DNA from: Styela clava
Lineage: Eukaryota; Chordata; Ascidiacea; Stolidobranchia; Styelidae
Direction: 5' to 3'
Assembly: GCF_964204865.1 (NCBI RefSeq)
Contig: NC_135250.1
Coordinates: 8,184,001-8,248,000, forward strand
DNA: 64,000 nt
Numbering within the stretch: the stretch's first letter is position 1; each line of letters opens with the position of its first letter. This document shows positions 9,352-42,455 of the stretch, one piece after another. The translations under genes were made by a program, and so were the position numbers. Under the pieces are notes generated by a model, which had not been told where the DNA came from, made no database searches, and saw only the letters and a list, made by a program, of their open reading frames with translations.

Positions 9352-11278
9352 TCAATCATTTAGATTAAGTTCTTTGGTTGCATGAGTGATTCCGACGTCT
9401 AATGATTTTTCTTGGTTGTATACAACACTTGGTGGGGCGGCTCTCTGCTCTTTCGACTGAGTCAAAGAAATCCAACCGATACCCTGAATATAAAATAGTA
9501 ATGTTAAGTTTGTTAGCCAAAATCAATAGATTGTTTAGGTAATGAAAAGCATTGCCCAAAAATGAATACTTGTTCAATCAGATAAATATTAGAATGAACC
9601 ACTGGTGGTGACAATTCTTGTAATTTGGGGTCATGACAGTCTTATCCACACGTTTAAAGAAACGTCGGAGTAGGCTGCAAAAATATAAAAGAAACAATCA
9701 GTTACCGGATAGTAGACTTGTCCCAAATTCATTGTCCTGTCTGCTGGCATCTTTCCACGATACGGTGTCGGTACGGGCTCAGTTGTTCTCTCTTCGGGTG
9801 CAACATTGGTAGGATGGTCAGGGTTCCCATAAGGAGTTGTTTTGATATGTGGCAACGTATACCATACTTCTTCTTCTTTTTTAGAGGAGGGTGTCGAGTA
9901 CTTCGCCTGATGTGGAGTAGGGTATACGACAGGATTCTGATTCTTTTTAACGGAGTAATGAGATACTGGTGGCATCGGATAGTTGCCCGTGGCTGGTTCG
10001 TTCCGGTTCACAGGTGGTTTTTTATTTGAGATGTTTTTTTTTCGTAACTTATTTTTGATCGCCATATCAGTTCTGGTGGGATTGCAGTAGTTCATGTCGC
10101 AACAGTGTCGACAAGTGATGGGATTACTGTAATCAAGACAATTATTTGTAATAATTGTACGAGAGGTGTAAAGTGTGCAATAAGGTATAACTGCAATTGC
10201 ACGTAAAACATTTCACGCACTTAAAAATACTATTTATTGATTTCTACGCAAATTTACAATAATCTTTTGAAAGTTATCACTAATTCAACTTCTACAAAAT
10301 AATGCATATATATTTTATTTAACTAACGTGGAATATTCCTGGAAATGCTTTTTGAACTGCAGACTATTGCATTGGAATTCATTTTGCATCATCAGTGATT
10401 TACAAGCTGAATCTTGTTTACATCCCCGTTTGTGAACTTCAATGCCATTTTCATAACGTTTTTCCACGAAGCAAGACTGTAAAATAAAAGAATCAGAAAT
10501 TACGTTTTCACAAAGCCCATTTTAGTTCGACTTTATTTTTGTCTTGCTTCAATTTAATTAGACGGAGTACACAATGATTACATGCAGTTATTAAGAATAA
10601 TCGAGTCGTCACCAATGTCTTAGCTGTTTTAGTAAATGGTGTTATTTTCATAATGTATATGCTCAGACCCGTCTCACTTAAATCTTTATTGTGTTTTCGA
10701 AATTGCATAAATATGGCGAAAACTTCAAGAAATTTCGCTGATTTTAGCGTCGAGGTATAAAATACAACCCTCAAGAAAGTTCATTTAGTCATGATCGATG
10801 TCCTCAATAAATTACAGCAATATCATCATGCGTCAGCAACTACTCGAACTCGGGAGCACGATAGAAAGAAATGTTATATTGTTGACGCACGGCGTCAGTT
10901 GCGAAATTGCGCGATGTCAGCAAATATTTGAATTCCTATTTAGTCTAGCGTGGTCCGTGCATTAAAAAGATCAAGTTCCAATTATGCATTAATGCACGTG
11001 CCGAGTATTTACGTCAGGTGGTTTGGATATACACGTCATAAACATATGATGCTGCATATAATTAAAAATTGTTTCGATTGTCATAATCCACTAACCTGTG
11101 ACGGTCCACACTGCTTCCATTTTCCTACTCTGAAGCAATGAGCATCAGAACTGGCATCTTCGCACTCCCAACATTTTAGCCTTTTGGCCGCTGCAAATCG
11201 AGGAATGTATCCGCCATGGCACATTGATGCCAATCCGAACATGCAAACAACAAGTAAACTGACAGATGGTAGTCTCAT
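9352..11278 (-). CDS. LU-B: secreted Ly6/uPAR (Quiver-like) domain protein with Pro-rich tail
   Basis: Four exons: 11278-11096, 10476-10328, 10126-9706 and 9483-9352. All are GT-AG and in phase, 885 nt in total, 294 residues, stop TGA. The start is the ATG at 11278 (MRLPSVSLLVV), which gives a clean signal peptide; the frame is open upstream to a GTG at 11293, which I do not use. The LU domain runs from LKCWEC (Cys36, Cys39) through KRGCKQDSAC to CCDMNYCNP. Exons 1 and 2 are exactly the lengths of their LU-A counterparts (183 and 149 nt). Exon 3 is longer (421 versus 223 nt) and encodes a Lys/Asn then Pro/Thr-rich linker. NLGQVYYPGIGWISLTQ spans the last junction, as in LU-A, but LU-B stops 33 residues later. 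Secretion is inferred; the ligand is unknown. Confidence 0.75.
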
Positions 11279-15310: not shown

Positions 15311-16583
15311 ACATTGCCCCGTTTTCGTGGTTTTGAGTGTTATTTGTCAGTTTTCAGGTGTGTTTCCAAAATTTAGTAGTAAATGAAGTATTTTAATTAC
15401 CATCATGTATTCCAGTGAGCTTTACTTTAACTGCGATAGCCAAAAGCATCCAAAATTCTTCAGTAGTAAAGTATAGGGAGAATTTTGTTTGGGGTCATCC
15501 ATTGAGTTCGGTTTCGTGATAGAAACTCAGAAATTCTGCTAGCGACATCTAACGGTTAGATTTTTGACTTTTACAATATCTGACAGAAATCCAGAAAATT
15601 CTACGAATGCTGTGACTTCTCATTCGGTATGACGTTTCAATCAGACAAAGGTCGTGGGCTTTGGCGCTCTGCGAGCTGGAATATCGTAATATATTGCTCT
15701 ATTGTACGGTTTAGGCTTGAGCTTCAATTTATAGGTGTTTTGTTTATAGTTAATTTCGTGTCTTACAAAAGTTTCTAGTCGTAGTGGTGGTCGGGTCTAC
15801 ATTCAGACATTGTAATAACGTTCTGACGTTTCATATTTTTTTTTGTATTTGAAAAATTTGGATGATACTGATGCTGAATTAATCGAACATACAATGCTGA
15901 TGGGGATTATATAGGATGGTGATGTGTAATGTGATGAACATATATTAACACATTGAAAAAAATAAATAAATAACGTTTCATATTTACCCAGGGAAAGGCC
16001 CATGTCATTCTGTCTGTCCCATGTTCGCATGTACAATATCTGTACATATTCTTGTATTCGAGTACCTACACTCTGACACCTAACAACTTAAGCTCTGTGA
16101 TTGGAAAGTTAGACACAATGGACTTTCTGACTTTAGTTGATTGAAAGAAATAGCCCTTTTTTGTAAAGAAGTACGAAAATGTTTCTAAATTAAGTAATTG
16201 CTGCATGTCTTCAGCAGTATGCCTCCTAGCCAGTTTTCCAGTTTTCACTGGCTGTTTAGCACTTCCCGTTTTCGATTTTCTGTTTTTTCACCTGTAACGA
16301 TATCAACAAGTAAAACCAAACACCCATTTTGAGGTTTGTGATATAAAGATGTATTACAGTATTATAGGCTAGTTGACAAATTTTCAAAAAAAAAACAACT
16401 TTTCAATAACATTTCCACTCTGCTGTTTATCAATATAGAGCTTTTCGATTTTTTTTTTAAACAGAAGTTTATCTTAAAGTATTGTTAATTATGTAATATT
16501 ATGAATTGAACTGCTGATTCCAAAGGCAGTTTCAGTGAACGAATTTTGAATAAATAAACTGGATGATATCTTGGAATTAAACA
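15311..16583. other. Intergenic, upstream of the DnaJ gene
   Basis: The first part continues the older repeat interrupted by the SINE. The remainder is AT-rich with no recognised exon and presumably contains the DnaJ promoter. Confidence 0.4.
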
Positions 16584-18712
16584 ATGAATCGGTGTTATTA
16601 TGAAATCCTTGGAATATCTCGTTGCGCAAATGACGAGGAAATAAGAAGGGCGTACCGAAAAATGGCCCTGAAATTTCATCCAGATAAAAATAAAGACGCT
16701 GATGCTGAAGAACGATTTAAAGAAGTTGCCGAGGCTTATGAAGTCTTAAGCAACAGCTGCAAACGGAAAGTTTATGATAAATATGGAGAACAGGGATTGA
16801 AACATGGGGGAAACTCTGGATGTAGTTATACTTTTAATGATCCGAGAGAAACGTTTGCTTCATTTTTTGGTGGACAAGACCCATTTACGAATTGGGATGA
16901 TATGTTCATGGACTTCGACGATACATTTCAAGATGTATTTAGTAGGACTACCTCATCGCATTTTCCCGGGTTCGGTGGTTGCCATCGGTCTCGAACTACC
17001 CCTAACTTTTTTTGTAGGTCACGACGAGGTTGTCGTAGTAAACAGTTACCTCAAGATCCTCCTGTCATTCATGACTTGAGAGTATCACTCGAAGAAGTTG
17101 CAACTGGTTGTACTAAACGGATGAGAATTACAAGGAAACGTTTATCTCCTTGCGGACTTGCTTCCAGAACAGAAAATAAAATTTTAGTCGTAGAAATTAA
17201 GAGAGGGTGGAAGGTGGGTGGATTTGCTCTTTTAATAAGGCAAAAATATAGGCAAATTATAAAAAAATTTGAATCATGTAAAAAAGTTTAATACAAAATC
17301 TCAAAACAAATTAATTTTTGCCAAAAGTGAATTATGGTATAGAAATATGTAATTGAATCAAATCTAATTTTTCAGAGTTGCAGATTATATAGTTTCTTCC
17401 CATCACTTCACTTCTGAATTTGAAAGATGGGCTACTTGTAAGTCTGAAATGATCTGTAACATCCTCACATTTTTGTGGTGTTATACAGGGCTGCAGTATT
17501 TGACCAAAAACTTTTATTTCTTTGTTTGATTGAGCTTGCTAACTTCTCTTTTTCTTCTATTCTAGGAAGGGACCAAAATCACATTTGCAAAAGAAGGAGA
17601 TGAGAAAGCAAATACAATACCAGCAGACGTCATTTTCATTGTGAAGGATATTCCACATTCTATATTTCAGAGAGATGGAAGTGACATTATATATCAAAAA
17701 ACATTAACATTGAAAGAGGTGAGATTACCTGACAAAAAGTTCTGTGTTTCATCTGATGCTCATCTAAGCTTTTCACTTGAATGAGAGATCAGATAGATTA
17801 TCACGATTCTGGCAGGCCAGTATAATAAACATTTCTTAAATCTTTACTTTCGTATGAGATTTACATGTTGTCCCGGGGGAGAGAAAAGCCGATAAGCTGG
17901 CTTGACCATATGGTGAACCACGTCCACGACCTCTCGTCCGGTTACCAATCCATGTCGAGTGTGGGATTAGTTAGCCAGTTATTTGTTTTCGGATGCATGT
18001 ACTTGATGGTGGAGGAAGTAATAAATCTTGAATGAATGGGATGTGTTCTTTATGTGTATTTTGAGGGTTCTTAGACAAAAAGGCAAATGTTAAAATTTTT
18101 ATTTGAAAATAATATAAAGATATACCGGTAGGTGTTTTTTAAGCTGGTATTCTATCATGGCTTGGATCAATATTTTCCAAAGGATCATGTTTTAATAAAA
18201 AGCTACAAATGTGTTAAAATATTTCCTAAAGTAGCTATTTAAAGATTCACCCTTCCACTTAGAAGCTAGCTAGAGTACAAAAAGGATGTATCATGTATGT
18301 ATGTATTGATTAATGTTAATTGATCATAGTGGATGACAAATTTCATATTGACGAAACAGGAGTATAAAAGTTCTGACTCAGACAGTGTTTATTTAACCAG
18401 TGACAATGTTACTGATTCGACATTTGTAAAATCTATCATTGTAAAATTATCTTGTAAAATATATTAATCTTATTGTAACAGGCCCTTGTTGGATGCGTAC
18501 TACAAATTCCAACACTAGATGCTGGAAGAACGTTAACAATACAATGTTATGATGTTATTAAACCAAATTCCGAGAAGCGAATACAAGGAGAAGGTCTTCC
18601 CATACCAAAACAATTGAGCCAAAGGGGGGATCTTGTTGTTCAATTCACAGTTAATTTTCCAGCATTTTTAAATGCGTCACAAAAATTGGCGCTAAGTAAT
18701 ATTTTACCATAA
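16584..18712 (+). CDS. DNAJB1/B4/B5-like Hsp40 co-chaperone (class II J-protein)
   Basis: Three exons: 16584-17213, 17566-17718 and 18482-18712. They are GT-AG, all phase 0, and give 337 residues, close to the ~340 of human DNAJB1. The J domain is residues 1-70, with YYEILG and the HPD motif at 32-34 that stimulates Hsp70 ATPase activity. SYTF and FASFFGGQDPF (81-101) follow, as in the DNAJB1 group. The usual Gly/Phe-rich linker is reduced: residues 121-158 are instead rich in Arg, Ser and Cys. The substrate-binding C-terminal domains run from about residue 160 (VIHDLRVSLEEVATGC) to the end and include IQGEGLPIPK, the family's GEGLP signature. The expected role is an Hsp70 partner in cytosol or nucleus. 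The exact orthologue within B1/B4/B5/B13 was not resolved. Confidence 0.9.
17859..18020 (-). repeat. SINE fragment in DnaJ intron 2
   Basis: Reverse-complement copy of the 3' body of the tRNA-derived SINE (CCCGGGGGAGAGAAAAGCCG). The tRNA-like head is absent, as in a 5'-truncated insertion. Confidence 0.8.
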
Positions 18713-38355: not shown

Positions 38356-41300
38356 TTATTGTCGCACCATAGGAAGTATGCTTTGGTAGAATTCCGGTAA
38401 GAATGTGTATTGAAGTTTTCGCTTGACTTTCTGCAACACTTCTCCTCTGTTAATGTAGTTCCGAAGCGCTCGTGCCATTTTTTGATATGTCATTGTACAT
38501 CGATTGTTCTTCGCTATACCCCAGTCTTTCGAAAGTTCTTCCTTGTGACGTGATGTGAACTGAATTGATAAAAAAATATTAAGTTTCCTTAGCAATGAAG
38601 AGATTAATTTAAAAGCAGAATTGAAGAAACTCAAAATAATATTATCCTGAATGATGGAGCCGCATCGACAGAGATTCTTACATAGTGTTATTTGCAACAA
38701 AAAGTTAAGCCATTTATGAAAAAAATGCCGAAATAATTCAAATTCATTCATGGCACACCAAACAAGGCACAGTAAATTGTATATGCGGAAAATTTACTTC
38801 AGACTGATATGACAACTAACTATTTCATTACAAGACCTGACTTATGAACAAAATAAGGCAATATAGATTGATAAGCAATACTGGCGTAGCACCCCAACCA
38901 AAATGAAGATAAATTCCATATGGCATACTCAAAGGTTATTCTGGACGTGTAAAAATGCTCGAATGATAAATATTTTTACCTGGAAGGTGCCTGTTTTGAT
39001 ATCGACCCAGTGAATCATTTTTCCATATTTCTCAGGTTGATTAAGCGCATCCAGTAAAAATTTCCACAGAATTGGTTGTTTTGTAGTCTTCCGCCTCCGC
39101 CTTTTTGGACCAATAGTTTCTGAATAATGGGAAATATGAGAGATTTATCAATAGTAATAATAAACAAACATATTAAGTGTGCGGTAGTTGGTGTATTGCG
39201 AAGCCTCTGATTATCTTGCGTGGGTTCTCAGATTTATAGTCTGTAGGGGATAATGTGTTAGAGGATTGTTAGACTCTTTGCCGTCATAGGGTGATTCATA
39301 TAACCGCTGGTTGGTTATGACTCTCTTACCATCAAGGCCATGCATTTACAACAAAGAACTGTTAGTGTTATATGCACAGAATTCAAGACTTTGTGTTAGA
39401 GTGGTGGCAAGCTCTATTTTTACATAATCCATATAATAATTTGGTTATTAAAGCATAGACGGTAATGCCAAATAATTATTTTTTAAACGTAATGAGAAAA
39501 CTCACTCAAGCACAGAGATGAACGCATATTTATCTAATAACTCGTCGACTAAGAAGTAGGCAGTAAACAATATTAGGTACCAGTAATCTTTTTTGGAAAA
39601 CTAAAAAATCAAACACAATAGTACAGGCAGGTATGAACCACTGTGCTAGATTATAAAATCTAAGATGCCTAAATTAGCTTTGTAACAGTGAGTGAAACAG
39701 GCAGCAGAATATATTTAAATCATACTAAAACAAGCTTCTGATCTCTCATCAATAAAGTATAAACAAACAGATTTTAAAGCGTAAAACATGCGTAAAAAAC
39801 TGGATGTGGAATAGTTTATTAAATCTATATGCCATTTAAGACAAATCCTCTGAAGGGTTATGGTGAGTAGTTGTGTCATGTTGCTTCTGAGATACATGTA
39901 TTTATTGATTCAAATATCACATACGAAATGTAATTTTATCAAATATTAGAAGCAATTTTATGTTGAGTTACCTATTTCAGCTTGGACTTCATCAAAGTTT
40001 GAGATGGTAGTTGATTTGTTTTCCTCTTCAACTTTATCAATTCCAGTGGGAATTTCGTCATCTGCTTTTCTTTTTTCCCTTTTCTTTTTCATTATATTTA
40101 TTCCCCCATTTCTTTCCCAAGTTCGAATTAGTTCTTGCGCTCCTTTTTTGCTAATACGAATTTTATCTTTATCGTACATATCGATGGGAATTCCTCCTTC
40201 TTGTAAGTTGAAAATTGTTGGTGGTTCAATGTATAAAGCTCCGTTATACTCCGCGACTTTCTTCAACTGCCTATTAACAGTATGTCGCGAGTGATCGCTT
40301 TCAAGATGGTCATAACGAGGAATGATCCCACTAACAATAACCTTTTGTGATTTTTGTTTCGCTAGTTTTACTAATTTATCAACATCTTTTTCAACTGGTT
40401 GATTTGATACTACGTTATTTGCTCCGACATAGAGTATTAATACGTCCATTAACTTGTCAACATTGTGCCATGCTAATATGTTATGCAGTTTCCAAATCGG
40501 ACAACCAGGGGTACCTTCTTGGACTTTGGCAGAGACCAGGTGTTTGAGTTGCCTCCCTTGGGAATCAGCAAGTATGTAAGAACGACGAGATGTTGTTTGA
40601 TCATTTTTCGTGACAACGTGTGTCGCGTCTGAAGTTTCTTGCAAATTTGTTTTTTGTTGTAATTCTGGGCCAGACTGACTTGTGACAACGTGTGCTGCCT
40701 CTAAAGCTTCCAGAGCTTTCTTTTTTCGTTGTAATTCTGGGGTTTGTTGAATAAAAGGTTGAGAATTGTGAGGTTTTGGGCCAGATGTTATTATTACAGA
40801 TAATTGTTTTTCAGGATGAATTTGTGTTTGATAATTAATTTGATTCACTGGTATATCTTCTAGACTATTTTTGTCTTCTTTGTTTATAGTATTTAGTGTT
40901 CTAATGTTTATTATTTCAGGATAAGGTGTAGTAGTTTCTTTGCTATCCGAGGACTCTGATTGTTCTATTTTCTCTATTTCATTTTCTTCGTGGTAATTAT
41001 CTTCACAATTTTCTTCAATTTTGGACGCTTTGCTGGGACTCAATTGACTCTGTCCCATTTGGACCATTGTTTGTGCAATCATGAATTCTTCCAGCGTCAT
41101 GTTTTCTATATTAGATTTCCTATGTTCTTTACAATCTTCTTCACTATGAGGTGTGGGATCCCAATCTTTACATAACGGACACACTTTTCTTCGCCAACAA
41201 TCCATGGCACGATGACCAGTTTTTTTACATATATAACATTTTGGCGTGATATCACTTTGATTTTGATTATTTATTTCATCATTTTCTTGTCCCTCATACC

Positions 41301-41592
41301 ATACTTTAAATTCTTGTTGATTACATCTGTGTCCTTGCGGTAATTGTAAAGTTCCCGGTATTTCATATTCTAAATGCATTTTATACATTCGTCTCCCAGT
41401 CAAATTTCCCATACAATCTTTTTCTCTTGTTATAGATACAATATGTCCATAGTTTTCCAATATTCGAGTCAGATAATGATCTGGAACCCCATTTGGAATA
41501 AGGGACATCCAAACATCCACAATGTCGTCTTCAACATCTTCGGTATTTTGAGAATTATTATCGGGATCAAAAGATGTGAAAATATTCACCAT
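38356..41592 (-). CDS. Predicted fusion: retroelement ORF1-like protein joined to a SPI-type ETS domain
   Basis: Exon A, 41592-39972 (1621 nt), encodes residues 1-540: an RRM-like stretch (~27-102), CCHC zinc knuckles (Cys119-Cys122-His127-Cys132, then Cys138-Cys141-His149-Cys154), an acidic linker, and an SGNH-hydrolase-like region (~338-495). A basic KKKREKRK follows at 502-509. The frame reads four more codons to a stop, but GAAATAG|GTAACT at 39971 is a phase-1 donor. Exons 39119-38980 (140 nt) and 38559-38356 (204 nt) start in phase 1 and encode the ETS domain ([29 protein letters not shown]). The joined model has 654 residues. The ETS exons have the same lengths as, and are about 91% identical in protein to, the last two exons at 55.7-57.6 kb. 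AATAAA lies just past the stop (38349-38344). The ETS exons are secure; the join is inference. The alternative is an unrelated ORF1 copy lying upstream of an ETS pseudogene. Confidence 0.58.
39176..39352 (+). repeat. Diverged SINE fragment in the ORF1-ETS intron
   Basis: It resembles the SINE body (GGATTGTTAGACTCTTTGCC, ATATAACCGCTGGTTGG) with many substitutions. It lies between the ORF1-like exon and the first ETS exon. Confidence 0.65.
39958..41592 (-). mobile_element. Solo retrotransposon ORF1-like ORF (zinc knuckle plus SGNH)
   Basis: A 544-codon ORF without internal stops. Domain order matches ORF1 proteins of CR1-like non-LTR retrotransposons, which carry zinc fingers and an SGNH esterase. 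SGNH block I is LADSQG (Ser344) and block III is VGANN (390-393). The block V D-x-x-H is Asp476-Lys-Ile-Arg479, so the catalytic His is replaced. A ~35-residue unit (ELQ..K..LE..xATHVVT) occurs twice at about 287-328. No reverse-transcriptase ORF2 or remnant is visible on either side, unusual for an element that normally keeps its 3' end. Confidence 0.75.
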
Positions 41593-41964: not shown

Positions 41965-42455
41965 ACAGATGTAGGGTCTAGTTCTAGTATAGTACCACAA
42001 GTACTACCGGTGGGCGTAGCATAACGAATTTTGCATATGCTATTCCTAACCCCCACCTGACTACAGAACTAGGCTATGCCATCCAAAAATTATGTCACTA
42101 CGACGTCACCATCACGTCATAGAAATTGCCAAAGTATAATTACGATCTCCCGAAATGACATCTGCGCCGCCGATAACGAACTTGCTAAAGCCGGCGATCT
42201 CTCTCCTATAATGATCGTTGTGACGAGAAAACGAGAGAAATTGCTTGCTCGATTTCGGGTGATCGTCTGTGCCTTTTGGACGAGCATCCGCATACTTCGG
42301 TGGGCCTTATTACGCCACTGTGTAGTCGAAATGACGTAATTTTTCGGTGACGTAGTCAGGTGGGGGTTAGGATTGACATATGCAAAAATTGTTGAGCCAG
42401 GTCAACTAGAAGTACATGTGGTACTAAACTATACCGGTACCAGACCCCAGATGTA
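41965..42455. mobile_element. ~490-bp MITE with long terminal inverted repeats
   Basis: The left arm (TTTTGCATATGCTATTCCTA, then ACCCCCACCTGACTAC at 42028-42063) matches the reverse complement of the right arm near 42354-42390. Homology continues outward through GTACCACAAGTACT versus GTACCACATGTACT. The interior is GC-richer and includes an open frame that is part of the element. Outer ends are approximate. Confidence 0.72.

Follow-up and report, generated by a model that had tools for sequence, protein, structure and literature searches.

A probable domesticated LINE ORF1 fragment beside an old duplicate of a PU.1-like ETS domain

The 64-kb stretch of DNA analysed here, which we refer to as the window, contains a 544-codon open reading frame (ORF) that is probably a single-copy, domesticated fragment of a LINE ORF1, judging from its sequence in one genome (Table 1). 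The fragment appears to have kept an RRM-like domain, two zinc knuckles and an SGNH fold and to have lost the N-terminal region, all of ORF2 and the catalytic His, and its product may bind RNA, carry an SGNH fold devoid of catalysis and perhaps act on LINE ribonucleoproteins (RNPs), as reported for L1TD1. The ETS exons that follow it are an old, constrained duplicate of those of an upstream PU.1-like gene, hereafter the sister gene, and most likely they serve as alternative 3' terminal exons through a splice from 58130 to 39119, by which the same activator would acquire a slightly different DNA-binding domain. To the combination of the two, a domesticated ORF and an ETS copy sharing the activation-domain exon of the sister gene, we give slightly less than even credence. 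The likelihoods that we attach to domestication and to the splice partner are judgements, and the rival explanations weighed below are not mutually exclusive.

Table 1 Features of the ORF, the ETS copy and the sister gene, in window positions
Feature	Position	Strand	Remarks
Activation-domain exon, sister gene	58547-58130	minus	from first in-frame ATG; strong phase-1 donor, 11.5 bits
First ETS exon, sister gene	57569-57430	minus	
Second ETS exon, sister gene	55875-55672	minus	with stop
LINE ORF1-derived ORF	41592-39958	minus	544 codons and stop; RRM-like domain, two zinc knuckles, linker, SGNH domain, tail
RRM-like domain of ORF	41287-41520	minus	bounds approximate; equals the knuckle-adjoining RNA-binding domain of LINE ORF1 relatives
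Two CCHC-type zinc knuckles of ORF	41131-41238	minus	residues 119-154
In-frame tandem duplication in ORF linker, 72 nt	40610-40741	minus	60-nt units, 77% identical
SGNH (esterase-like) domain of ORF	40123-40581	minus	bounds approximate; Ser344, Asn392 and Asp476 retained
Codon 479 of ORF, CGT (Arg)	40156-40158	minus	where the SGNH triad has its catalytic His
GT of donor-like site	39971-39970	minus	TAG/GTAACT, phase 1, last exon base 39972; in Gly codon GGT
AATAAA	39901-39906	minus	52 nt past ORF stop; possible polyadenylation signal of the ORF itself
SINE-like dispersed repeat	39205-39361	minus	between ORF and first ETS exon of copy
First ETS exon of copy	39119-38980	minus	begins in phase 1; no in-frame ATG ahead of domain
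Second ETS exon of copy	38559-38356	minus	with stop; AATAAA from 38360 overlaps stop

The ORF itself is as originally predicted, with a phase-1 GT four codons ahead of its stop, and its frame opens just three codons ahead of its ATG. The zinc knuckles and the SGNH fold that had been proposed for it were also found, although the Pfam matches of the ORF alone (Lipase_GDSL_2 at 22.9 bits, zf-CCHC at 20.0 and the ZCCHC3 domain at 12.7) all lie below the curated cut-offs, a point against domestication. A profile of the ORF together with four LINE relatives, compared with solved structures, matched the ZfL2-1 ORF1 esterase (PDB 4c1b) with an E-value of 2.5e-11 and an RRM structure with one of 8.9e-7. 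The Pfam family PF23058 was matched by three of five family members at E ≤ 0.5, the best value being 0.0017 and that of the window ORF 0.17. A search of viral contigs and phage records returned no relatives of the ORF, and Rfam and tRNA scans of the 64-kb window gave no matches.

The relatives of the ORF were sought in its own genome (G000, 376.6 Mb), where at least 57 other matches at E ≤ 0.001 were obtained with 80 of the 81 candidates scored. Twelve of these loci were read with their flanks, and at 11 of them ORF2 homology lies downstream of ORF1 on the same strand; six of the 11 had supplied the ORF2 queries and match by construction, which is not so for L042 to L046. The sole locus without ORF2 homology is a decayed copy, L050. 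Both ORF2s that were scanned with Pfam (L039 and L047) carry endonuclease and reverse transcriptase domains; in L039 the ORF2 is split into two frames by a stop, and long unbroken ORF2 frames are found in L047 and L049, each of which has an intact ORF1 as well. By the sequence evidence the relatives are LINEs whose ORF1 has, after an N-terminal region, an RRM-like domain, a pair of zinc knuckles and an SGNH domain, and the retroelement origin first proposed for the window ORF was right. The N-terminal region, present in six of the seven relatives whose translation was read (the open frame of L040 is without it), may be a first RRM-like domain, which is our own reading and has no database match behind it. 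An OSK match was obtained for one LINE relative, but it is weak and falls short of the cut-off (E 0.032). Since L039 and L040, located on two chromosomes, share about 99% identical DNA over ORF1 and ORF2, this LINE family has recently been active. L041 and L042 (G000:C16, about 90 kb apart) are 99.5% identical across 9.4 kb, and so the segment either was duplicated recently or is present twice through an assembly error. The window also holds an inverted repeat of MITE-like look at 41985-42431 (80-nt arms, 287 nt apart, matching at 80%), and DNA resembling it adjoins the LINE loci L047 and L048.

Compared with its relatives, the window ORF sets in close to where their N-terminal region ends. 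That region was not found in the 84 kb around the ORF, where the best of many weak matches, at E 0.04, was taken as noise. Nor did the 84 kb yield pieces of ORF2 at E ≤ 0.05, the best weak matches being at E 0.087 in a flank and E 0.27 within the window, and an alignment for decayed ORF2 in the DNA just after the ORF produced nothing exceeding shuffles. The window copy is accordingly without the ORF2 bearing endonuclease and reverse transcriptase that a mobile LINE has, and it presents an intact ORF1 frame with the rest of the element missing, as a domesticated LINE ORF1 should. The SGNH triad is given as Ser-His-Asp in the part of PMC3905857 available to us; the window ORF keeps Ser344 and Asp476 and has Arg479 at the DxxH His, and it thus departs from an active SGNH hydrolase. 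The His is found in 19 of the 20 relative elements that cover the site, with Asn in one decayed element; the 20 come from 29 loci (L010-L038) and several are near-identical, so that they do not amount to 20 independent tests.

With 80 of 81 protein candidates and 40 of 312 DNA candidates in the genome scored, we found no near copy of the ORF. The top protein identity of any other match is 62%, and this across 66 residues only, by which the ORF classes as single-copy and non-repeat within the candidates scored; in DNA, where many of the candidates are the SINE-like repeat, the best other match among the 40 scored is 73% over 372 nt, with short stretches more identical (for example 88% over 49 nt). 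The original prediction had named many equally intact ORF1 copies with an adjacent reverse transcriptase, together with a lack of conservation of the locus, as findings that would speak against it, and here the outcome is divided: LINE relatives with both frames intact do exist (L047 and L049), but the best matches are only about half identical in protein and none of them is this element, so that the idea of many equally intact copies was not borne out. These observations bear on the alternative that the ORF is undomesticated, an orphan that was inserted recently, whose LINE family has otherwise disappeared and which is intact by youth. We regard this alternative as somewhat unlikely. As 5' truncation is typical of LINE insertions, the missing N-terminal region counts in favour of such an insertion, as do the recent activity of these LINEs (L039 and L040) and the presence of intact relatives in the genome; the lack of a near copy among the scored candidates, the absence of ORF2, the lost catalytic His and the divergence of the internal duplication all count against it.

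The units of the linker duplication have diverged by a K2P distance of 0.28 over 60 nt, and when neutral drift was simulated at half this divergence none of 3000 frames remained free of stops, compared with 5% open at 0.04 per site. The simulations argue for selection on the ORF if the duplication postdates the insertion, which it may instead predate. Along the window branch, synonymous changes make up 23 of the 49 codon changes that could be scored, versus 24% expected (p 0.0005), a constraint that is no proof of domestication because the branch includes time as an active LINE; the corresponding count on the branch of the L039 LINE is 18 of 37. Unique changes at codon positions 1, 2 and 3 number 56, 44 and 69 in the window copy versus 49, 29 and 63 in L039. 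Second codon positions may thus be somewhat relaxed in the window copy, and the excess at these positions (44 versus 29) weighs against the domestication that we otherwise consider probable.

Turning to the ETS copy, a PU.1-like ETS exon in phase 1 downstream of the ORF, and a joined frame of 654 residues, had been predicted, and both were confirmed: the exons of the copy continue the frame of the ORF (540 + 114 residues). The domain has PU.1 structures as its best matches. Over the 114 codons, 35 of the codon changes between copy and sister are synonymous and 10 nonsynonymous, with dN of 0.04-0.05 and dS of 0.7-1.1 by three methods and dN/dS of 0.04-0.08, and the two align over the exons and a few flanking bases only. 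The low ratio and the flanks that no longer align therefore indicate an old duplicate that has been translated, and the copy, being both closest to PU.1/Spi and constrained, belongs to the PU.1 class, as the prediction of a duplicated ETS domain of this class had it. Because there is no in-frame ATG ahead of the ETS domain, the copy must have an upstream exon. The SINE-like repeat in this region is about 155 nt long and occurs also at about 15.1, 24.2, 28.0 and 45.2 kb of the window, with at least 38 further genome matches at 73-83% identity among the 40 of 312 candidates scored.

One possible upstream exon is the ORF. In the original prediction the two formed a single chimeric gene, with the ORF as 5' coding exon spliced from 39972 to 39119 and a predicted 654-residue RNA-binding/SGNH/ETS protein as product, a fusion that we consider unlikely. 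Donor, phase and acceptor are compatible, the copy needs an upstream exon, and of the 69 GTs in the ORF the terminal one scores highest as a donor, at 6.7 bits by a generic matrix; the same matrix assigns 6.0-12.8 bits to seven donors of the sister gene and the ETS copy that were taken as real. Donors as good as this one occur at 1.6 per kb on the minus strand, and by our own arithmetic such a donor within 15 nt of a stop and in the right phase is, taken alone, an event of about 1%. The tails of LINE copies, however, place the site in a different light. L041 and L042 end in DEVMQIETGKTV-stop and L043 in DEEIQREAGKTV-stop, and all three have GGT AAA at the Gly-Lys homologous to the tail of the window ORF, with a stop four codons on; their donor-like site scores 5.6 bits. 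L041 and L042, at 99.5% identity, count as one, so the copies sharing GGTAA are two independent elements. L039 is the closest of the relatives whose full ORF1 is open; its tail differs and lacks the site. Since GGTAA and the following stop are common to LINE copies, the donor-like site is ancestral ORF1 coding sequence, and we rejected the idea of a newly evolved GT. The terminal GT and stop, being inherited from the LINE ORF1 and not specific to this locus, are therefore no evidence of a splice junction, and the site did not originate as a splice donor at this place, although an inherited GT could have been co-opted as one. The AATAAA past the stop of the ORF also speaks against the fusion, although in AT-rich sequence matches of this kind are not unusual.

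The other candidate partner is the activation-domain exon of the sister gene, whose donor is far stronger than the terminal GT of the ORF (11.5 versus 6.7 bits) and whose phase fits the acceptor of the ETS copy as well as that of the ORF donor does. A phase-1 junction ahead of the ETS exons of the sister gene, as originally described, agrees with our reading of the phase by eye. Of the proposed chimera, then, the compatibility of frame and phase holds, but the claim of one gene is left unsupported by a LINE-inherited GT and by a stronger sister donor that fits the same acceptor. Because the sister gene lies upstream of the copy on the same strand, its activation-domain exons were found once in the genome and its phase-1 donor is strong, the ETS copy would more likely provide alternative terminal exons than the 3' part of an ORF-ETS fusion. 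Exon sharing is in our judgement the simplest route by which an ETS-only duplicate could survive, and we rate the sister exon as splice partner at about an even chance, a judgement and not a computed value. Against it stand the stop within the sister's own ETS set and the need to skip across 19 kb. A scan of 60.0-39.12 kb for exon candidates in phase 1 that are ATG-open, span at least 20 codons and have a donor of at least 6 bits found five. The ORF is the sole one of these located between sister gene and copy; as the only candidate of this kind between 55.7 and 39.1 kb, it weighs against exon sharing and in favour of the fusion.

It is also conceivable, if rather unlikely, that the ETS copy has a small or multi-exon 5' end of its own which was missed by inspection, the ORF being a separate gene. 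A coding exon may fall below the 20-codon limit of the scan or start without an ATG, and in our gene model the first exons of the sister gene are about as short as that. No convincing copies of the sister's exons were found near the ETS copy, however, and a six-frame Pfam search of 41.7-55.6 kb, between the sister gene and the ORF, gave a single match, below cut-off (E 0.055); both results count against a separate 5' end. Elsewhere in the window are a DnaJ-like open frame at 16581-17291 (plus strand), with a J domain seen by eye, and an open frame at 9631-10212 (minus strand) with a Cys-rich CCxxxYCNP stretch, Ly6/three-finger-like by eye only.

Set beside known systems, a domesticated ORF would most resemble the mammalian gene L1TD1; according to the abstract of a 2014 paper (PMC4161310), no other domesticated gene that stems almost entirely from a LINE-1 was known. 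In both, an intact LINE ORF1 frame with its RNA-binding parts has outlasted the remainder of the element. The two differ in ORF1 type, the window ORF having RRM, CCHC and SGNH domains, and the window ORF is known from one genome. The EKA genes of powdery mildew are likewise a gene family made from LINE ORF1, but they are fungal effectors, and the portion of PMC4641428 at hand mentions no SGNH or ETS part. The ZfL2-1 ORF1 protein, the best solved match of the family profile, has the SGNH domain in a LINE ORF1 too, with the difference that according to the accessible text of PMC3905857 its Ser-His-Asp triad is kept and active. The same text names Oskar as a non-catalytic SGNH protein, and the window ORF, with an SGNH fold that would likewise be without catalysis, resembles Oskar in this; the OSK match noted above for one LINE relative is too weak to indicate a close sequence relation. 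ZCCHC3 shares CCHC knuckles and a second, weakly similar RNA-binding domain (PF23058), whereas the SGNH domain is a feature of the window ORF, and ZCCHC3 is reported to suppress LINE-1 (PMC10351740, available in part). As for the ETS copy, it resembles PU.1/Spi factors in its domain and differs from them in that no activation-domain exons of its own were found. The excerpts we had of two papers differ on the spread of esterase ORF1s: within the Jockey superfamily they are confined to two vertebrate groups according to PMC4120745, in contrast to their occurrence in many animal phyla according to PMC3905857. No LINE ORF1-ETS fusion was recognised in the literature by title or the opening of an abstract.

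One could also speculate, as a quite improbable case, that a domesticated ORF1 has had its inherited Gly codon GGT co-opted as a donor into the duplicated PU.1 ETS domain. If so, the result would be a sequence-specific DNA-binding protein with an inactive esterase fold besides its RRM and zinc knuckles, which could recruit LINE RNPs to GGAA sites or could silence them; any fusion of the ETS copy to the ORF would be an unusual one between transposon and host, in that the DNA-binding part would come from the host. If the ETS copy is instead an alternative pair of terminal exons, the sister gene would encode a factor of the PU.1 type in which either of two DNA-binding domains can be used. Domestication of the ORF, which we hold to be probable, would be a further case, arisen independently in an animal, in which the ORF1 is of another type and has lost a catalytic residue, and would thereby show which ORF1 functions hosts reuse.
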